From: an uncultured Lachnospiraceae bacterium | GTDB taxonomy: Bacteria; Bacillota; Clostridia; Lachnospirales; Lachnospiraceae | Assembly (NCBI GenBank): GCA_946623875.1 | Contig: CAMORO010000016.1 | Coordinates: 1-39,492, forward strand | DNA: 39,492 bases | Reading direction: 5' to 3' | Part shown: positions 7,208 to 29,401 of the stretch, one piece after another | Position numbering within the stretch: the first letter of the stretch is position 1 | How the letters are laid out: every line of letters begins with the position of its first letter | The notes under the pieces: generated by a model | The model's database searches: none | What the model was told of the DNA's origin: nothing | Seen by the model: only the letters and a program-made list of their open reading frames with translations | Program-made: the position numbers and the translations under genes

Positions 7208-7303
7208 CTCTTATTGCTCGATTACTCGCTCAGGTTGGCACCTTCCTTTCGGGGTTGCCGTGGCTTCACAGATCCTATGTATCTCCACCACTCTGAATAA
7301 GAG
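7208..7303 (-). ncRNA. SAM-I (S-box) riboswitch of metK
   Basis: Read on the minus strand, the closing P1 helix pairs CTCTTAT at the 5' end with ATAAGAG at the 3' end. Between them lie the conserved S-box pieces: GAGTGGTGGAG, CTGTGAAGCCACGGCAACC, GGTGCCAA and CCTGAGCGAG. It binds S-adenosylmethionine. The transcript would start about 2 bases upstream of P1, from the promoter at 7312-7341. The aptamer is followed by an intrinsic terminator and then metK, consistent with repression by transcription termination. Confidence 0.95.
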
Positions 7304-7442: not shown

Positions 7443-7481
7443 GTAACTGTTCATAACAGCACATGTATTTTTAATAGTTAC
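7443..7481. mobile_element. 39-bp derivative of the GTAACTATTC palindromic element
   Basis: It begins GTAACTGTTCATAACAGCAC and ends TTTTTAATAGTTAC. The first 20 bases differ from the outer end of the full element at 15168-15310 at only two positions, and the other end matches AATAGTTAC exactly. It looks like an internally deleted copy. No target duplication is visible. It would lie at the very 5' end of the repressor mRNA, 26 bases upstream of its ribosome binding site. Confidence 0.55.
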
Positions 7482-10211: not shown

Positions 10212-12353
10212 TTACAACTCCACTTCGACTTTGACCGGAGTTACGCCGCACAGAGATACACTGTGCTCATCCGGCTGGCTTACACCTGCATACAGTGTAA
10301 AGCTGTTGCTGTCAAGGACAAGTTCACCTTCATCGTTGTACTCCATGAACGCCTTGCCGGGGATCGAGAAGAAAAGTCCCACTTCCTCTCCCGGCTTAAC
10401 TGCCACTCTCTTAAATGCACATAAGCTGTGGTTCCTTACAGCGTAAGATGATTTGTTATCCTTTATGTATATCTGGACTACCTCCTCTATTGCAGTTGCG
10501 CTCTCATTGCGGACGGTTACCGTCAGATCGATCCCGGCTTTTTTAAGCCTTTCCGGATCCCCCGCAGCTTTCTTAAGCGCATCAACATTGATTTCGGCAT
10601 TCCTGATCGCCAGCTTACCGTATGTCAGTCCGAACCCGAAGGGATACTGCGCCTCATTTTCCATATATCTGTAGGTACGTCCCTTCATTGAATAATCGGT
10701 GAATTCGGGAAGCTCCTCAAGTGAATTGTATAAGGTTATCGGAAGCTTGCCTGACGGAGATTTCTTACCGAACAACAGGTTGGCAAAAGCCCTGCCTCCC
10801 TCAGCTCCGGGATACCATGCCTGGATAATGGCCTTGACATTGCTGGCATCTCTTGCGAACGAAAGATCCATCGCCGAACCGGTCATAACCGCTACGATCA
10901 CCGGCTTCCCGGTATCAATAACAGCCTTGGCAAGTATTCTCTGCGACTCGGGGAAGTTGAGATCCGGCTTATCACCCGAAGCATAGCTGTTACCCGTATC
11001 GCCTTCCTCGCCCTCAAGTGTTTCATCAAGACCGAGTACCAGAACAACTACATCCGAATGACCGGCAACAACTTTTGCCTCTGCCAGCCTGTCATTTTCA
11101 AAGGCGAGCGGTTCAACTCTGTCCTTATACAAATGGCATCCCTCTGAATACAGAACGTTAATGTTCGGTCCGGCCTCATCCTGTATACCTTCAAGTATAG
11201 TGGTATATCTCGAAGAAGTTCCGTGGTAATTGCCTATAAGCGCCACCCTGCTGTTGGCATCGGGTCCAATAACGCCTATTGTATTGACTCCGCCCTTGTT
11301 AAGGGGAAGAAAATCATCATTCTTAAGAAGTACCATCGACTTCTCAGCCACTTTCACGGCATATTCCCTGTGTTCACGGCACTCAACCTTTTCATAAGGT
11401 ATGTTGTCATATTCACAGGAATCGAAGAGTCCCAGCATAAACCGTGTCGTATACAGCCTTATGCATGCTCTTGTTATCTCCTCCTCTGTAACCAGTCCGT
11501 CATTATAAGCCTTCATTAAGTGAATGTATGTATTTCCACAGTTGACATCACAGCCCTTCTTAAGCGCCAGAGCCGCCGATTCCTCTATGGTCTTCGTAAC
11601 CATATGATGCTCATGAAAATCTCTTATAGCCCAGCAGTCCGAAACGAAATGACCTTCAAAGCCCCATTCACCACGCAGGATATTTTCCATAAGCTCGGTG
11701 TGTGCGCAGCACGGCTCACCATTTGTACGGTTATAGGCTCCCATGACTGCCTCAACATGCGCTTCCTTTACACATTCCTCAAAGGCCGGAAGATAGGTTT
11801 CCCTCATATCCTTTTTGGTAGCTTTGGCATCAAACTCATGCCTAATTGCCTCCGGACCGGAATGTACCGCAAAATGCTTGGCACAGGCCGCAGTTCTTAA
11901 ATACTCACCATCTCCCTGAAGACCCCTGATATAAGCCGCTCCAAGCTTAGATGTGAGGAACGGATCCTCTCCAAATGTCTCATGTCCACGTCCCCATCTG
12001 GGATCGCGGAAGATATTAACATTAGGCGACCACATGGTCAGTCCCTTATAAATATCCCTGTCTCCTTCTTCAGACACAGCATTGTACTTAGCCCTGGCTT
12101 CCGTTGAAACTATCTCTCCGACTTTCTCAATAATACTTTCATCGAAGGTTGCCGCCATGGCTATTGCCTGGGGAAATACAGTAGCCTGTCCCGATCTGGC
12201 AACACCATGGAGCGCCTCATTCCACCAGTTATACGCAGGAATGCTTAACCTGTCGATCGCAGGAGAATCATACCTGAGCTGACTGGCTCTCTCCTCTACG
12301 GTCATCATTTCAACCAGGGTTGTTGCTTTTTTTCTGGCTTCTTCTCTGTTCAT
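10212..12353 (-). CDS. GH3 beta-xylosidase-type glycoside hydrolase
   Basis: 713 residues. It probably removes xylose from xylo-oligosaccharides inside the cell, since there is no signal peptide. The N-terminal barrel carries YNWWNEALHGVAR (41-53) and ATVFPQAI (57-64), typical of GH3 xylan 1,4-beta-xylosidases, the KH pair at 159-160, and the nucleophile in FVSDCWAIRDF (Asp239). The alpha/beta domain follows (VLLKNDDFLPL, YPGAEGGRAFANLL), then a C-terminal fibronectin-III-like domain ending near 713. It is first in the operon with xylB, behind a promoter and a XylR-type operator. Arabinofuranosidase or beta-glucosidase activity cannot be ruled out from sequence alone. Confidence 0.92.
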   Translation of the reverse strand: MNREEARKKATTLVEMMTVEERASQLRYDSPAIDRLSIPAYNWWNEALHGVARSGQATVFPQAIAMAATFDESIIEKVGEIVSTEARAKYNAVSEEGDRDIYKGLTMWSPNVNIFRDPRWGRGHETFGEDPFLTSKLGAAYIRGLQGDGEYLRTAACAKHFAVHSGPEAIRHEFDAKATKKDMRETYLPAFEECVKEAHVEAVMGAYNRTNGEPCCAHTELMENILRGEWGFEGHFVSDCWAIRDFHEHHMVTKTIEESAALALKKGCDVNCGNTYIHLMKAYNDGLVTEEEITRACIRLYTTRFMLGLFDSCEYDNIPYEKVECREHREYAVKVAEKSMVLLKNDDFLPLNKGGVNTIGVIGPDANSRVALIGNYHGTSSRYTTILEGIQDEAGPNINVLYSEGCHLYKDRVEPLAFENDRLAEAKVVAGHSDVVVLVLGLDETLEGEEGDTGNSYASGDKPDLNFPESQRILAKAVIDTGKPVIVAVMTGSAMDLSFARDASNVKAIIQAWYPGAEGGRAFANLLFGKKSPSGKLPITLYNSLEELPEFTDYSMKGRTYRYMENEAQYPFGFGLTYGKLAIRNAEINVDALKKAAGDPERLKKAGIDLTVTVRNESATAIEEVVQIYIKDNKSSYAVRNHSLCAFKRVAVKPGEEVGLFFSIPGKAFMEYNDEGELVLDSNSFTLYAGVSQPDEHSVSLCGVTPVKVEVEL

Positions 12354-13491: not shown

Positions 13492-13522
13492 AAGATATTT
13501 TGAGCCTGTTACGAATAGTTAC
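13492..13522. mobile_element. Lone end of the GTAACTATTC palindromic element
   Basis: On the minus strand it reads GTAACTATTCGTAACAGGC and continues TCAAAATA. This closely matches the first 25 bases of the element at 15168, with one base missing and one changed. The opposite end is not recognisable nearby, so this is probably a decayed copy. Confidence 0.5.
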
Positions 13523-13570: not shown

Positions 13571-14980
13571 CTAAAACAGCATATGCTCGTAATACAGACC
13601 GGAGAATTCCTTAACATTACTTAAGGTTACCTCCTCACTGATCGCGATTATCTTCTCGATATCATCATCATTGAAGTGGGATCTGCCGTATTTGATCGCT
13701 CCCGCGAGTGACGAGTTACCTACTGTAACCACCTTTGACTGAAGCTCCTTCGGTATAAGCCCTATCGATACCGCACTCTGAACATCCAGTCCGTGTCCCA
13801 TCCCACCCGCAAGGTACAGCCTTTCGATATCCGATGCCATAACTCCGTAAGCTCTCATAAGAACCTCTATGCCTGCCCTGACCGCTGATTTGGCAAGCTG
13901 GAAATCCCTGATCTCCTTCTGATTTATCGTTACCGACTTACCGGACGAACCGATCCTGTAAGTATAGCCTTCATCGAAATACGGATCCTTCAACGCCCCG
14001 TTCTCATCAATAATACCGCTGTCCCGAAGATCGGCCATACACTTTATTACATCTGTTGCGGCATTAAGCCTTGTCCCTTCAAAAGCGGGCCCGGCAGCCG
14101 CCGATGCTGTAAGTATCCGGTCTTTGTTTCCGATCGCCATCTCACCGTTGGTTCCAAGATCAACAAACAGGTTGACACTGTCAGATTCATAAAACCCGCA
14201 GTAGTACAGTCCCGAAACAACATCACCGCCTATGAAAGCCGAAAGATTGGGAAGTATGGTCCATGGAAGTACACGACCGGAATCAAGCATCAGATTCTTC
14301 TTGAGCCAGCCGGTATAATACGGCCTGAACGGATAGTTGATCATCTCTTCGATAGGATACTTCATCATGAGATGGATCATGGTTGCATTACCTGCAACAA
14401 TGACATGGGCAGGCACTTTGGGAAATTCACTGATCAACGCGTTAATATCGTCAACCACACAGTCGCTCAGTTGCTCCGCATTTCCTTTTATCGCAGACTC
14501 ACTCCTTGATACTACATCTGCTCCGTAGCTGCATTGGGAATTGATCCTGCCGCCTTTATATATAACTTCACCGTTGCATACAAGTTCGGCCGCAATGGTG
14601 GTTGTTCCAATATCAATTGCCGCAAACGTCAGATCTTCAACGCCATCACAAGCAAGCGAAAAGGACATATCATCATCCGGAGCAGTTACAATGGATGTTT
14701 CACTCTCAGACATATCAAGTATTGTAACCCTAAGCTCATCCACATCATCCTTATCCGGTCTGACGAAACATGCAAGCCTGGCCCCCATCGCATTCTCCTC
14801 ATCCGTAAGGAGATACATCTCTTCATAGGAAGCCTCATTCATCTTCTGTTCATCAAGCATGATCCTGCATTTCCCGCAGGTATGGCGCCCGTTACAGAAC
14901 GCTCTGATCATAATACCCTGTCTTCTTAAAGCATCAAGTACCGTTTCGTCCTTTTTACAATTAATGGTATATTCCCTCAT
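13571..14980 (-). CDS. [2Fe-2S] ferredoxin-ASKHA protein, RACE-type (DUF4445)
   Basis: 469 residues from the ATG at 14980, which has a GGTGGGA site; a GTG three codons earlier lacks one. The N-terminus is a plant-type ferredoxin domain with Cys29, Cys35, Cys38 (CNGRHTCGKC) and Cys71 (RLACF). Next come a linker and a large ASKHA ATPase domain (AIDIGTTTIAAEL, VAGNATMIHLMM, VDLGTNGEMAIG, AAAGPAFEG, AGGMGHGLD). Family members such as RamA reductively reactivate corrinoid (B12) proteins using ATP. No corrinoid protein or methyltransferase is in the window, so the partner is unknown. It sits downstream of a membrane peptide and a CofE-like ligase on the same strand. Confidence 0.88.
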   Translation of the reverse strand: MREYTINCKKDETVLDALRRQGIMIRAFCNGRHTCGKCRIMLDEQKMNEASYEEMYLLTDEENAMGARLACFVRPDKDDVDELRVTILDMSESETSIVTAPDDDMSFSLACDGVEDLTFAAIDIGTTTIAAELVCNGEVIYKGGRINSQCSYGADVVSRSESAIKGNAEQLSDCVVDDINALISEFPKVPAHVIVAGNATMIHLMMKYPIEEMINYPFRPYYTGWLKKNLMLDSGRVLPWTILPNLSAFIGGDVVSGLYYCGFYESDSVNLFVDLGTNGEMAIGNKDRILTASAAAGPAFEGTRLNAATDVIKCMADLRDSGIIDENGALKDPYFDEGYTYRIGSSGKSVTINQKEIRDFQLAKSAVRAGIEVLMRAYGVMASDIERLYLAGGMGHGLDVQSAVSIGLIPKELQSKVVTVGNSSLAGAIKYGRSHFNDDDIEKIIAISEEVTLSNVKEFSGLYYEHMLF

Positions 14981-15032
14981 AAATCCCACCGTTTACGTAA
15001 AACACCGACTGCCTTCGACTGCCTGATCCTGT

Positions 15033-15143
15033 TTAATCTTCTATATCATCCTCGGCCGCTACCGCCGATATTACCGAAGTGACCGCCGAAACCACTACGG
15101 CAACAACTATCACTATAAATACAATCCCTACAAATAAAATCAT
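15033..15143 (-). CDS. Small single-span membrane protein (36 aa)
   Basis: From the ATG at 15143 with a GGAGG site 6 bases upstream, the product is 36 residues. It begins MILFVGIVFIVIVVAVVVSA, one strongly hydrophobic helix, and ends in an acidic tail (AAEDDIED). A longer frame starting at 15227 would begin inside the mobile element and lacks a ribosome binding site, so I reject that start. The gene lies 52 bases upstream of the RACE gene on the same strand. The element at 15168-15310 ends only 24 bases upstream of its ATG. Function is unknown. Confidence 0.6.
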   Translation of the reverse strand: MILFVGIVFIVIVVAVVVSAVTSVISAVAAEDDIED

Positions 15144-15159
15144 AGCCGACCTCCGTTTT

Positions 15160-15318
15160 ATATTTTTGTAACTATTCAGAACAGGCTCAAAATACTTCGT
15201 ATTTTTCGCTGCTTTGGATTCATCCAATACATAAATTTATAAAATATGCCCCTTACAAGCAAGCTTGACGGTTCATATTTTAAAATTTATGTGCTGTTCT
15301 GAATAGTTACATATTTTT
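15160..15318. mobile_element. MITE-like palindromic element with 8-bp target duplication
   Basis: The element spans 15168-15310 (143 bp). Its ends are perfect 17-bp terminal inverted repeats, GTAACTATTCAGAACAG on the left and its reverse complement on the right. It is flanked on both sides by the exact 8-bp repeat ATATTTTT (15160-15167 and 15311-15318), the signature of transposition. It encodes no transposase, so it must be moved in trans. It separates the CofE-like gene from the small membrane gene and probably replaced or reshaped the latter's promoter region. Confidence 0.85.
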
Positions 15319-15356: not shown

Positions 15357-16547
15357 TCAGTCCGTAAAATTGTCAAAATATCCCTGAATAAGTATGAACG
15401 GCGTTCCCTTATCACCCGATCCGCTGGTCAGGTCACACAGGGATCCGATAAGATCGGTAAGCTGTCTGGGGGTTGTACCCTGAGAAGCCATCTTGCCCTT
15501 AAGATCCTTATCCTTCTCTTTTATGCTCTTGGTAATGGCATCCTTAAGTTCCTGTCCGCTCAAATGCTTGAAATCATTGTCCGCAAGATATTTAAGCTTA
15601 AGCTCATTTGGTGTTCCCACAAGTCCGTCTGTAAAGGCAGGCGATACGACCGGATCGGCCAGTTCCCATATCTTGCCCTTGGGATCCTTAAACGCGCCAT
15701 CACCGTATACCATAACCTCAACATGTTTCCCTGTAAGTGAGAGCATCTGCTTCTGTATATCTTCAACAAGGCTCTGGCAGTCTCTCGGGAACAGCTTAAC
15801 CTTGTCTTCGGTTGATTTATTGGATCCCAGCAGCCCGTACTTCTCATTGTATCCGCTGTCACCGACCGGTGCATTTAATATATCATCAAGTCCCAGTACC
15901 GTCTTCGCTCCGGCATTTGCAAGCAGCCTCTTGGTCCTTGCCCTTGAATGTATGTCACAGGTTATAACACAGTCGGTATATTCAAGAACCGCCCTGGCCT
16001 GATTGGCAAATATGATCTCAATATCAGCACCGGCTTCACGGACTATATTTGAGTAATAATCAACATAATCAACACCTGTGAATTCATGCTTGTTATCGCC
16101 GAACAGCTCCCTGTATCTCTCAAGTGTCAGCACATCACTGTACGGATTGACACCCGCTTCATCCAACTGATCATATGTAAGAAGCGCATTTCCCACCTCA
16201 TCACTGGGATAACTCAGCATAAGCACGACCTTACGACAGCCCTTGGCGATACCCTTAAGGCATATTGCAAAACGGTTTCGTGATAGTATGGGAAATATCA
16301 CTCCCACAGTGCCGCCACCTGTTTTCTTGCGCACATCATCCGCTATATCGGCCACAGTAGCGTAATTACCCTGTGCCCTTGCAACTATCGATTCGGTCAG
16401 GGCTATTATATCCCTGTCTCTTATCTTGATATCCTCGCTCGCCGCAGCATCCATAACACTGCTGACCGCTATGTCCACAAGATCATCGCCCTGACGGATT
16501 ATGGGCCCTCTTATTCCTCTTGATACCGTTCCTATAAGTCTTTCCAT
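15357..16547 (-). CDS. CofE-like protein (F420-0:gamma-glutamyl ligase family)
   Basis: 396 residues from the ATG at 16547, preceded by AGAAGG; an upstream TTG lacks spacing for a ribosome binding site. In methanogens and actinobacteria CofE adds glutamates to coenzyme F420-0 using GTP. The N-terminal region (IGTVSRGIRGPIIRQGDDL, then DIIALTESIVARAQG) and the later VMVYGDGAFKDPKGKIWELADPVVSPAFTDG segment match the family. The protein is longer than the archaeal enzyme (~250), as is usual for the clostridial branch. No F420 biosynthesis gene is nearby and this kind of bacterium is not known to make F420, so the real substrate is open. It ends in a Asp-rich tail. Confidence 0.82.
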   Translation of the reverse strand: MERLIGTVSRGIRGPIIRQGDDLVDIAVSSVMDAAASEDIKIRDRDIIALTESIVARAQGNYATVADIADDVRKKTGGGTVGVIFPILSRNRFAICLKGIAKGCRKVVLMLSYPSDEVGNALLTYDQLDEAGVNPYSDVLTLERYRELFGDNKHEFTGVDYVDYYSNIVREAGADIEIIFANQARAVLEYTDCVITCDIHSRARTKRLLANAGAKTVLGLDDILNAPVGDSGYNEKYGLLGSNKSTEDKVKLFPRDCQSLVEDIQKQMLSLTGKHVEVMVYGDGAFKDPKGKIWELADPVVSPAFTDGLVGTPNELKLKYLADNDFKHLSGQELKDAITKSIKEKDKDLKGKMASQGTTPRQLTDLIGSLCDLTSGSGDKGTPFILIQGYFDNFTD

Positions 16548-16764
16548 TAATACTACCTTCTTCCCGTACAATACTTTTGTTATAAGACGACATTGCCGCT
16601 CTCTTGCAACACCCCATATAATTACACCGGTTTTAAACCGTCATTTCAATTATACATATAAGATAAATTGTTTACAAGGGCATTTACCGTATTTCACAAA
16701 AACTGTATACAATCCCCAAAACAAAGTGTATATAATATATGTATCAACTCACAGGAGGAATCTC

Positions 16765-28197: not shown

Positions 28198-28290
28198 GTA
28201 ACTATTCAGAGCCATGCACATAAAATACGGATCATGTTTACATGAAAGCCGGATTTTATGTATATGGCGAATGTGGTTCTGAATAGTTAC
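28198..28290. mobile_element. MITE-like palindromic element (second copy, 93 bp)
   Basis: The ends GTAACTATTCAGAGCCA and TGGTTCTGAATAGTTAC form a 17-bp inverted repeat with one mismatch. The first 13 bases are identical to the element at 15168-15310, and internal stretches (GCACATAAA near one end, TTTATGTAT near the other) are shared. Flanking 8-mers GATATGAT and AATATATT agree at only 5 positions, so any target duplication has decayed. It lies between a kinase operon and murG and ends 10 bases before the murG ribosome binding site. Its outer end plus flanking bases makes TACAAT, a possible -10 box for murG. Confidence 0.75.
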
Positions 28291-28315: not shown

Positions 28316-29401
28316 ATGAGCAAAAAGATCATACTGACAGGCGGCGGAACGGCAGGACATGTTACGCCCAATATCGCACTCATACCTGAACTTAAGAAGA
28401 TGGGATATGATATCAGATACATCGGATCATATGACGGGATCGAGAAATCCCTTATGGAGGATATCGGTATACCGTATCACGGTATCGCTTCAGGTAAGCT
28501 CAGGAGATACTTCTCATTAAAGAATTTTTCAGATCCGTTCAGGGTACTGAAGGGATTTTTCGAAGCCAACAGGCTTATACGGGAAATAAAGCCCGATATC
28601 ATCTTTTCAAAGGGAGGTTTTGTCGCAGTTCCCGTTGTTATAGCAGCCGGAAGGAATCATGTTCCGGCAATAATACACGAATCCGATATGACTCCGGGAC
28701 TTGCCAACAGGCTTTGTTTCAGATCCGCACGGAAAATATGCTGCAACTTCCCCGAAACAATGAAGCTGCTTCCCGCGGATAAGGCTGTTCTTTCAGGATC
28801 CCCGATAAGAGAGGAGCTTCTTAAGGGTGATGCTGATGCAGCGAGGGAATTTACAGGGTTTAAGGATGTTAAGCCGGTTATCATGGTAATGGGAGGAAGC
28901 CTCGGAGCCGCCAATGTCAACAAAGCGATACGTTCCATCCTTCCGAAGCTTCTTAACAGATACAATGTCATCCACCTGACCGGAAAGGGCAAAGGCGATG
29001 ACTCACTGAACGATACACAGGGTTACAGGCAGTATGAATATATAAAGGATGAGCTTAAGGATCTGTTCGCCCTTGCCGATATAGTGATATCAAGGGCCGG
29101 AGCCAACGCAATATGCGAACTGCTGGCACTTAAAAAGCCCAACCTCCTTATACCCCTGCCGTCAGCGAGCAGCCGCGGAGATCAGCTTCTGAACGCACAG
29201 TCGTTTAAGAAACAGGGGTATTCCATGGTTCTTACGGAGGATGAGCTTACGGATGATATTCTTCTGAAGATGATAGATGAGCTGTACGAAAACCGCAGCC
29301 GGTATATCAGATCAATGGAAGAAAGCAGCCAGAACAATGCAATAGAAACAATAACTTCACTTATAAATTCATTCAGTCAAAAACAGGGAGCATCATTATG
29401 A
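28316..29401 (+). CDS. murG: UDP-GlcNAc:lipid I N-acetylglucosaminyltransferase
   Basis: 361 residues. It transfers GlcNAc from UDP-GlcNAc to lipid I, making lipid II for peptidoglycan, at the inner face of the membrane. Motifs are ILTGGGTAGHVTPN (7-20), SKGGFVAVPVV, IIHESDMTPGLANRL (the HE.N patch), VMGGSLGAANVN and SRAGANAICELLALKKPNLLIPLP with the donor-binding Glu. A GGGAG site lies 10 bases ahead of the ATG. It stands alone, not in a division/cell-wall cluster. The 3' end of the gene overlaps the terminator of the convergent ABC transporter operon. Confidence 0.96.
   Translation: MSKKIILTGGGTAGHVTPNIALIPELKKMGYDIRYIGSYDGIEKSLMEDIGIPYHGIASGKLRRYFSLKNFSDPFRVLKGFFEANRLIREIKPDIIFSKGGFVAVPVVIAAGRNHVPAIIHESDMTPGLANRLCFRSARKICCNFPETMKLLPADKAVLSGSPIREELLKGDADAAREFTGFKDVKPVIMVMGGSLGAANVNKAIRSILPKLLNRYNVIHLTGKGKGDDSLNDTQGYRQYEYIKDELKDLFALADIVISRAGANAICELLALKKPNLLIPLPSASSRGDQLLNAQSFKKQGYSMVLTEDELTDDILLKMIDELYENRSRYIRSMEESSQNNAIETITSLINSFSQKQGASL

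Follow-up and report, generated by a model that had tools for sequence, protein, structure and literature searches.

What is the 143-bp segment with inverted ends that lies between two co-directional genes of an uncultured Lachnospiraceae bacterium, how did it come to be there, and does its body carry anything? The initial annotation of this DNA had described a MITE-like element of a mobile family, and the geometry that it gave is borne out. The 17-bp ends, GTAACTATTCAGAACAG and its exact reverse complement, bound 143 bp, ATATTTTT stands on both sides as an exact 8-bp duplication, and 24 bases (15144-15167) separate the element from the start codon (15141-15143) of a small membrane gene. Coordinates are those of the window, by which we mean the whole stretch of 39,492 nucleotides that was analyzed. 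The features of the element and its surroundings are as follows.

13571-14989, minus strand: downstream gene with 2Fe-2S and RACo ASKHA domains (domain scan)
15033-15143, minus strand: membrane ORF of 36 amino acids, present in the eight closest relatives read
15160-15167, no strand: left copy of the target duplication ATATTTTT (flank comparison, empty site)
15168-15310, no strand: 143-bp IS66-type MITE (exact ends, many copies of equal length)
15168-15184, plus strand: left 17-bp terminal inverted repeat, whose first 15 bases are the right ends of several IS66-family elements
15176-15302, minus strand: Clostridiales-1-like cloverleaf (fold, RF01699 match, covariation)
15185-15209, minus strand: hairpin P4, with AAAAUACGAAGUAUUUU inside (fold, covariation)
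15214-15227, minus strand: hairpin P3, UUGGAUGAAUCCAA (fold, covariation)
15228-15292, minus strand: long hairpin P2 with a GCUUGC apex (fold, covariation)
15294-15310, minus strand: right 17-bp terminal inverted repeat, exact reverse complement of the left end
15311-15318, no strand: right copy of the target duplication ATATTTTT (flank comparison, empty site)
15357-16571, minus strand: upstream flanking gene of the F420-0:gamma-glutamyl ligase family (PF01996; Pfam match)

A mobile family and its empty site

The element has the features by which a MITE is recognized: it is shorter than 300 bp, contains no ORF, and has inverted ends, a target duplication and several copies. It sits between the PF01996 gene and the 36-amino-acid ORF, in AT-rich spacer DNA that was formerly a single site, with its Clostridiales-1-like strand in sense with the operon. 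The GGAGG of the small ORF lies outside the element and is intact. Its product, a conserved one-helix protein that begins MILFVGIVFIVIVVAVVVSAV and is encoded between the PF01996 and RACo-like genes, matched no Pfam family, and we found no promoter or terminator consensus in the window between 14990 and 15420. Elsewhere in the window, a SAM riboswitch (RF00162, 67.9 bits) occupies 7208-7303 on the minus strand, and a search of viral contigs with a nearby gene of the window (10212-12353) gave no match.

The search for further copies that the initial annotation had proposed found them in the genome itself and in 13 congeneric genomes. With up to three mismatches allowed, the 17-mer occurs at seven sites in the window, against a chance mean of 0.08, and at 191 sites across the 2.82-Mb draft, whereas the reversed pattern gives 15. 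Searched by BLAST with the flanked element, the genome gave at least 46 matches, fragments included, a lower bound because 40 of 139 candidates were scored. The element was matched in 14 of 61 genomes, its own included; all 14 belong to the genus (37 genomes) and none to the 24 genomes outside it. In two of the 13 matching congeneric genomes (of 36), G007 and G024, the match covers only 30-40 bases. The window copy has 100% identical counterparts in G012 and G026, and we therefore conclude that the family was active recently. The 17-mer with at most one mismatch was found in 14 of 200 genomes sampled across the family, at one to four sites each apart from the genome of the window, and viral contigs contained the exact 17-mer as 15 single sites. 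When ORFs of at least 80 amino acids were called by length, none of 55 copies lay inside one. The window also holds two relics, a stump of 39 bp that retains both ends (7443-7481) and a single eroded end with the subterminal sequence ATATTTTGAGC of the 143-bp family (13494-13522).

Target duplications were examined in 52 copies with distinct flanks. In 35 of these the GTAAC ends are intact, with no more than one change in either, and in 17 they are eroded. An exact 8-bp duplication flanks 13 of the 35; at widths of 5-7 or 9-11 bp this set showed no exact direct repeat, and no exact duplication was seen at the 17 eroded copies. The flanks of the intact-end copies match on average at 5.94 of 8 positions, compared with 3.22 when the right flanks are permuted (0 of 20,000 permutations). 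Chance repeats or an assembly artefact are exceedingly improbable as an explanation: the draft is fragmented and several copies lie at contig ends, but the element recurs, differently flanked and with exact duplications, in 13 other genomes.

An empty site was found as well. The upstream PF01996 gene, of 404 amino acids, is present in 30 of the 37 genomes of the genus, that of the window included. In the eight closest relatives read (L114-L121) this gene is followed by the 36-amino-acid ORF and the element is absent; the ORF was not seen in the stretch read at the other 21 PF01996-gene loci. The comparison is clear in G036, where ...AGTAATAT-AAAAGACGGAGG corresponds to ...AAAAATAT-element-AAAAATAT-AAAACGGAGG in the window, the target-like AGTAATAT differing from AAAAATAT in its letters. 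In the other seven relatives the element is likewise missing, but the spacers differ. Thus, the multiple copies, the exact duplications in 13 of 35 and the empty site in G036 support the mobile family that had been proposed: the 143-bp family is multi-copy and has been recently mobile in the genus.

IS66-type ends and the source of the transposase

Ends that start with GTAA, together with an 8-bp duplication, pointed to IS66. We assembled 70 IS66 loci, 69 from a scan of genome contigs and one from viral contigs. End pairs were recognized in 30 of them with up to four mismatches allowed per end, so that a few of the 30 may be spurious; an exact 8-bp duplication accompanies 13 of these pairs. 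The right end is in many cases GTAACTATTCAGAACC, which is identical to the MITE over its 15 outer bases, whereas the left ends, mostly GTAACTGTTCAGCACCC or GTAACTATTCAGCACCC, agree with it less. The elements of this subgroup, of which Eubacterium plexicaudatum and Lachnospiraceae GAM79 carry examples, are about 1.8 kb long, encode one transposase and make 8-bp duplications; the two transposases that were scanned both match Pfam IS66 (PF03050). We take this single-transposase subgroup to be ISBst12-like. The ends and duplication length of the MITE are thus those of an IS66-family subgroup. Two further observations concern these elements. E. plexicaudatum has 12 subgroup loci (L145-L147, L149, L156-L159, L163, L166, L169 and L173), seven with exact 8-bp duplications, and could serve as a laboratory source of transposase. 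On a viral contig from IMG/VR (L212, 2651-4446) there is an IS66 element whose ends match and whose 8-bp duplication is exact.

An IS with matching ends, which the initial annotation had suggested looking for, therefore exists in other genomes, but none was found in the genome's own assembly, a fragmented draft that is 83% complete. The claim that the transposase lies elsewhere in the genome was accordingly not upheld: the sole IS66-domain match there has other ends, GTAAGCGTCTAA. Because the assembly is 83% complete, the absence of a parental IS66 is weak evidence. Three IS66 elements were considered as mobilizers and rejected, that of the genome itself (G000:C135, L010) for its GTAAGCGTCTAA ends, of the GTAAGCG type and with an 8-bp duplication TCTTTTTT, and those of G036:C143 and G031:C202 for their GTAAGCG ends. 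The L010 element has several ORFs, a small one of which (1026-1436) resembles an ORF beside the IS66 of G017.

Within the genus, IS66-domain loci are present in 11 of 37 genomes. One of these, a truncated copy in G017, carries the MITE-type end, GTAACTATTCAGAACCT, which begins 144 bp upstream of the first ORF; ends of this kind are also found in its closest relatives from other genera. Inward-facing pairs of the exact 15-base end, 1-4 kb apart on one contig, were not found in G012, G018, G023, G035 or G026. Nor did any IS66 element among the loci examined have the AG of the MITE at bases 16-17, and hence the exact 17-bp ends, and the subterminal sequences of the MITE and of the IS66 elements found differ. 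For these reasons none of the elements seen could have given rise to the MITE by simple deletion.

That no IS66 with exactly the MITE ends turned up, and that the MITE-rich genomes G026, G012 and G035 gave no IS66-domain match, would fit mobilization by some other transposase family that also makes 8-bp duplications. We consider this very unlikely, given that 15 contiguous bases are the right ends of the IS66 subgroup, that the duplication length is equal, and that the truncated IS66 in congeneric G017 carries the end. Rather, an IS66-type transposase acting in trans would cut at the GTAAC ends, and the excised element would be pasted into AT-rich intergenic DNA.

A cloverleaf body resembling Clostridiales-1 RNA

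The statement that the element encodes nothing holds only where protein is concerned: its body is a strongly folded, covarying, RNA-like structure, a conserved body that the earlier reading missed. The two strands fold with energies of -51 or -56 kcal/mol, compared with averages near -20 and -23 for shuffled sequences (z about -10). In the fold, the two ends pair as the closing stem, and three hairpins complete the four-way junction. To align the 143-bp family we began with 57 matches, left out three for length (L244, L250 and L258), removed seven identical copies and, by hand, the tandem copy L234 at 1648, which gave 46 rows; 31 distinct copies were hand-picked for covariation. Among these 31, 97.8% of cells are paired and 20 of 48 pairs have changes on both sides. 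None of 500 shuffles reached any of five measures of covariation, and sliding the partners lowered pairing to 29-54%. In a count meant to tell an RNA from a DNA cruciform by G.U asymmetry, there were 73 G-T cells and 32 A-C cells, but a single constant column pair supplies 46 of the 73, and when it is left out the leaning reverses.

The window copy resembles the orphan RNA Clostridiales-1 (RF01699). Against the full model its minus strand scores 28.3 bits (E 2.1e-4), below the gathering score of 48, and ten further MITE loci searched together gave one match at E<=0.1 (L242, 33.4 bits, E 7.8e-4). The window element nonetheless has the four-way architecture and the conserved loops of RF01699. 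In the reciprocal direction, 45 RF01699 loci were searched with a model derived solely from the MITE, which gave 17 matches at E<=1, 16 of which fall at the RF01699 place and strand and one of which does not; 29 of the 45 loci had no match. Five of the 16 coinciding matches belong to a 136-bp family described below (L306-L310), and of the 40 canonical loci 11 were matched, five of them at E>0.01. Run on 25 other loci, the model picked up the window copy on each of its strands and a single place in L125 that RF01699 marks too; this locus had been retrieved for an unrelated purpose. At this place (L125 930-1053, in G028) the Clostridiales-1-like RNA lies just upstream of an orthologue of the PF01996 gene, in sense.

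A sister element of 136 bp, identical in G000, G009 and G035, has the IS66-type ends GTAACTATTCAGAGCCATG and GTAACTATTCAGAACCCC. It scores 59.1 bits against RF01699, and a decayed copy (L310) 56.1 bits, both above the cut-off of 48; three of its four intact copies (L306, L308 and L309, not L307) have exact 8-bp duplications. Clostridiales-1 RNA above the Rfam cut-off thus does sit between IS66-type ends. The window contains a derivative of this family.

28198-28290, plus strand: 93-bp deletion derivative of the 136-bp MITE family, with IS66-type ends (the 17-mer with 3 and 2 mismatches)

The flanks of the derivative agree in 5 of 8 positions, and RF01699 gave no match at 28198-28290. It lies just upstream of a gene that starts at 28316.

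If the segment were a plain IS66 MITE, its cloverleaf would be a side effect of the inverted repeats and of palindromes nested in them, and its likeness to Clostridiales-1 a case of convergence. Nearly equal folding of both strands is in keeping with this, as are the window score of 28.3 bits against a cut-off of 48, the nine of ten further loci without a match, and the lengths of P3 and P4, which are unlike those of RF01699. But the sister family, with the same end type, reaches 56-59 bits, the reciprocal model falls on RF01699 places, the GCUUGC apex and the AUGA and GCGAAGC loops are common to both, and paired changes have accumulated in insertions common to species (see below). We therefore regard a plain MITE as distinctly unlikely. 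The body of the element forms a four-way cloverleaf, either akin to Clostridiales-1 RNA or closely resembling it.

Insertions common to species bear on whether the fold is kept. In two pairs of copies, L242/L037 and L263/L269, both flanks are homologous up to or nearly to the element; in a third, L237/L038, the flanks are homologous but gapped; and in a fourth, L040/L272, the elements are identical. Between L242 and L037, 11 pairs have changed on both sides, compared with 3.5 expected (p 4e-7), and four are broken in one copy. The corresponding values are 5 and 1.0 (p 3e-4), with five broken, for L263/L269, and 10 and 2.5 (p 6e-8), with five broken, for L237/L038. These compensating changes argue that the fold is kept where a copy stays put, although exchange between copies within one genome may also account for the pairing.

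Taken together, these findings make it quite probable that the window element is a non-autonomous MITE with IS66-type ends, moved in trans, whose Clostridiales-1-like cloverleaf body possibly acts as an RNA. The fold might act in the stability or processing of a co-transcript or in protection of the element.

Clostridiales-1 as possible cargo and comparison with known elements

RF01699 is found in 30 of the 37 genomes of the genus and in none of 14 control genomes. Across the family it was detected in 215 of 397 sampled genomes (186 of 334 genera), in 177 genomes over the cut-off. We know of no role for this RNA, which Rfam files as an sRNA gene. The titles and abstracts of the (mainly non-subscription) literature searched contain no description of Clostridiales-1 as a transposon. 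In the part of Weinberg et al. (2010; PMC2864571) cited here, it is listed as a candidate RNA and marked 'n' in a column that apparently refers to cis-regulation.

The canonical copies of other genera have ends of their own. Twenty copies from four multi-copy genomes of four other genera, hand-picked as high-scoring, start with TGATACCAGGGTCAAAAGG or a close variant. Apart from L378 and other exceptions, these copies end about 30 bases beyond the Rfam model, where the inverted repeat reads ...TTTTGACCCCAACATCA. An exact duplication of 5 or 6 bp flanks 16 of the 20 (permutation mean 1.45, maximum 6 in 2000). In a second set of top-scoring loci, mostly from different genera (29 of 30, L363 being left out because it lies near a contig end; the tail of L355 is cut), an inverted repeat of at least 11 of 17 was present in 20 (3.5% on shuffled tails) and an exact 5-6-bp duplication, with one base of play, in 15 (3.4% against other loci). 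The Clostridiales-1 core thus lies between at least two kinds of transposon ends, those of the 136-bp IS66-type copies and those of the TGAT...GGGTCAAAA copies. A partner that could be autonomous, that is, a 1-4-kb pair of TGAT...GGGTCAAAA ends with at most one mismatch, was not found in G291, G450 or G400. In the genus of the window, a clear inverted repeat (at least 14 of 17) was present in only six of the 47 Clostridiales-1 loci tested, of 70 fetched, on which ground the copies there are probably often old or immobile. The target duplications at canonical copies are themselves AT-rich, and a TATAAT-like box directly precedes the 5' end of several (L276, L330 and L331).

Orientation bears on the possibility that we are dealing primarily with a host regulatory or processing RNA of 5' leaders and operon spacers, kept by host selection, whose mobility is incidental. 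Of 30 Clostridiales-1 loci of the genus, 23 entered the test, and 20 of these lie in sense upstream of a gene (p 0.0005), as such an RNA would; the fold retained in shared insertions is also in its favor. The mobile copies, on the other hand, have no sense bias, with 32 of 52 in sense for the 143-bp family (p 0.13) and 14 of 28 for canonical copies of other genera (29 of 30 loci tested), and the element is absent from the window site in the eight closest relatives read. Among eroded copies of the 143-bp family, 13 of 18 are in sense (p 0.10). On balance we think a primary host function unlikely, and we return to the MITE with an RNA-like body.

A broader reading, tentative and in our judgment somewhat less than an even prospect, is that Clostridiales-1 is a bacterial counterpart of a SINE: a structured RNA spreading as cargo, which two or more unrelated sets of ends would have captured (the IS66-type, which makes 8-bp duplications, and TGAT...GGGTCAAAA, which makes duplications of 5-6 bp), whose fold would drive its success and whose old in-sense leader copies hosts would have co-opted. 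High-scoring copies often lie within bounded, target-duplicated elements, which would alter both the annotation and the counting of the family, and a fold retained across two transposon end types and in shared insertions offers a handle on function. Whether a folded transcript is of benefit to a DNA transposon also becomes a question open to experiment.

Four known or newly described systems can be set beside the window element. IS66 insertion sequences of the ISBst12-like kind share its GTAACT[AG]TTCAG[AC]AC ends and 8-bp target duplications, whereas the MITE has no transposase, differs at bases 16-17 and subterminally, and has a folded RNA-like core as its body. RF01699 has the same closing stem, long GCUUGC-apex hairpin, AUGA hairpin and GCGAAGC hairpin, but the closing stem of the window copy is formed from IS66-type ends and not from TGATGCC/GGCATCA, its P3 and P4 differ in length, and its score is below the cut-off. 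MITEPsy1, in the part of its description cited here (PMC3189936), is likewise short and geneless, has inverted ends and is thought to be moved in trans; it differs in its length of 100 nt and its 4-nt duplications, and a structured RNA body does not figure in that part of the description. Finally, the canonical Clostridiales-1 MITE of other genera, described here, is about 200 bp long; like the window MITE it is non-autonomous, and it shares the RNA core, but it is bounded by TGAT...GGGTCAAAA ends and 5-6-bp duplications.
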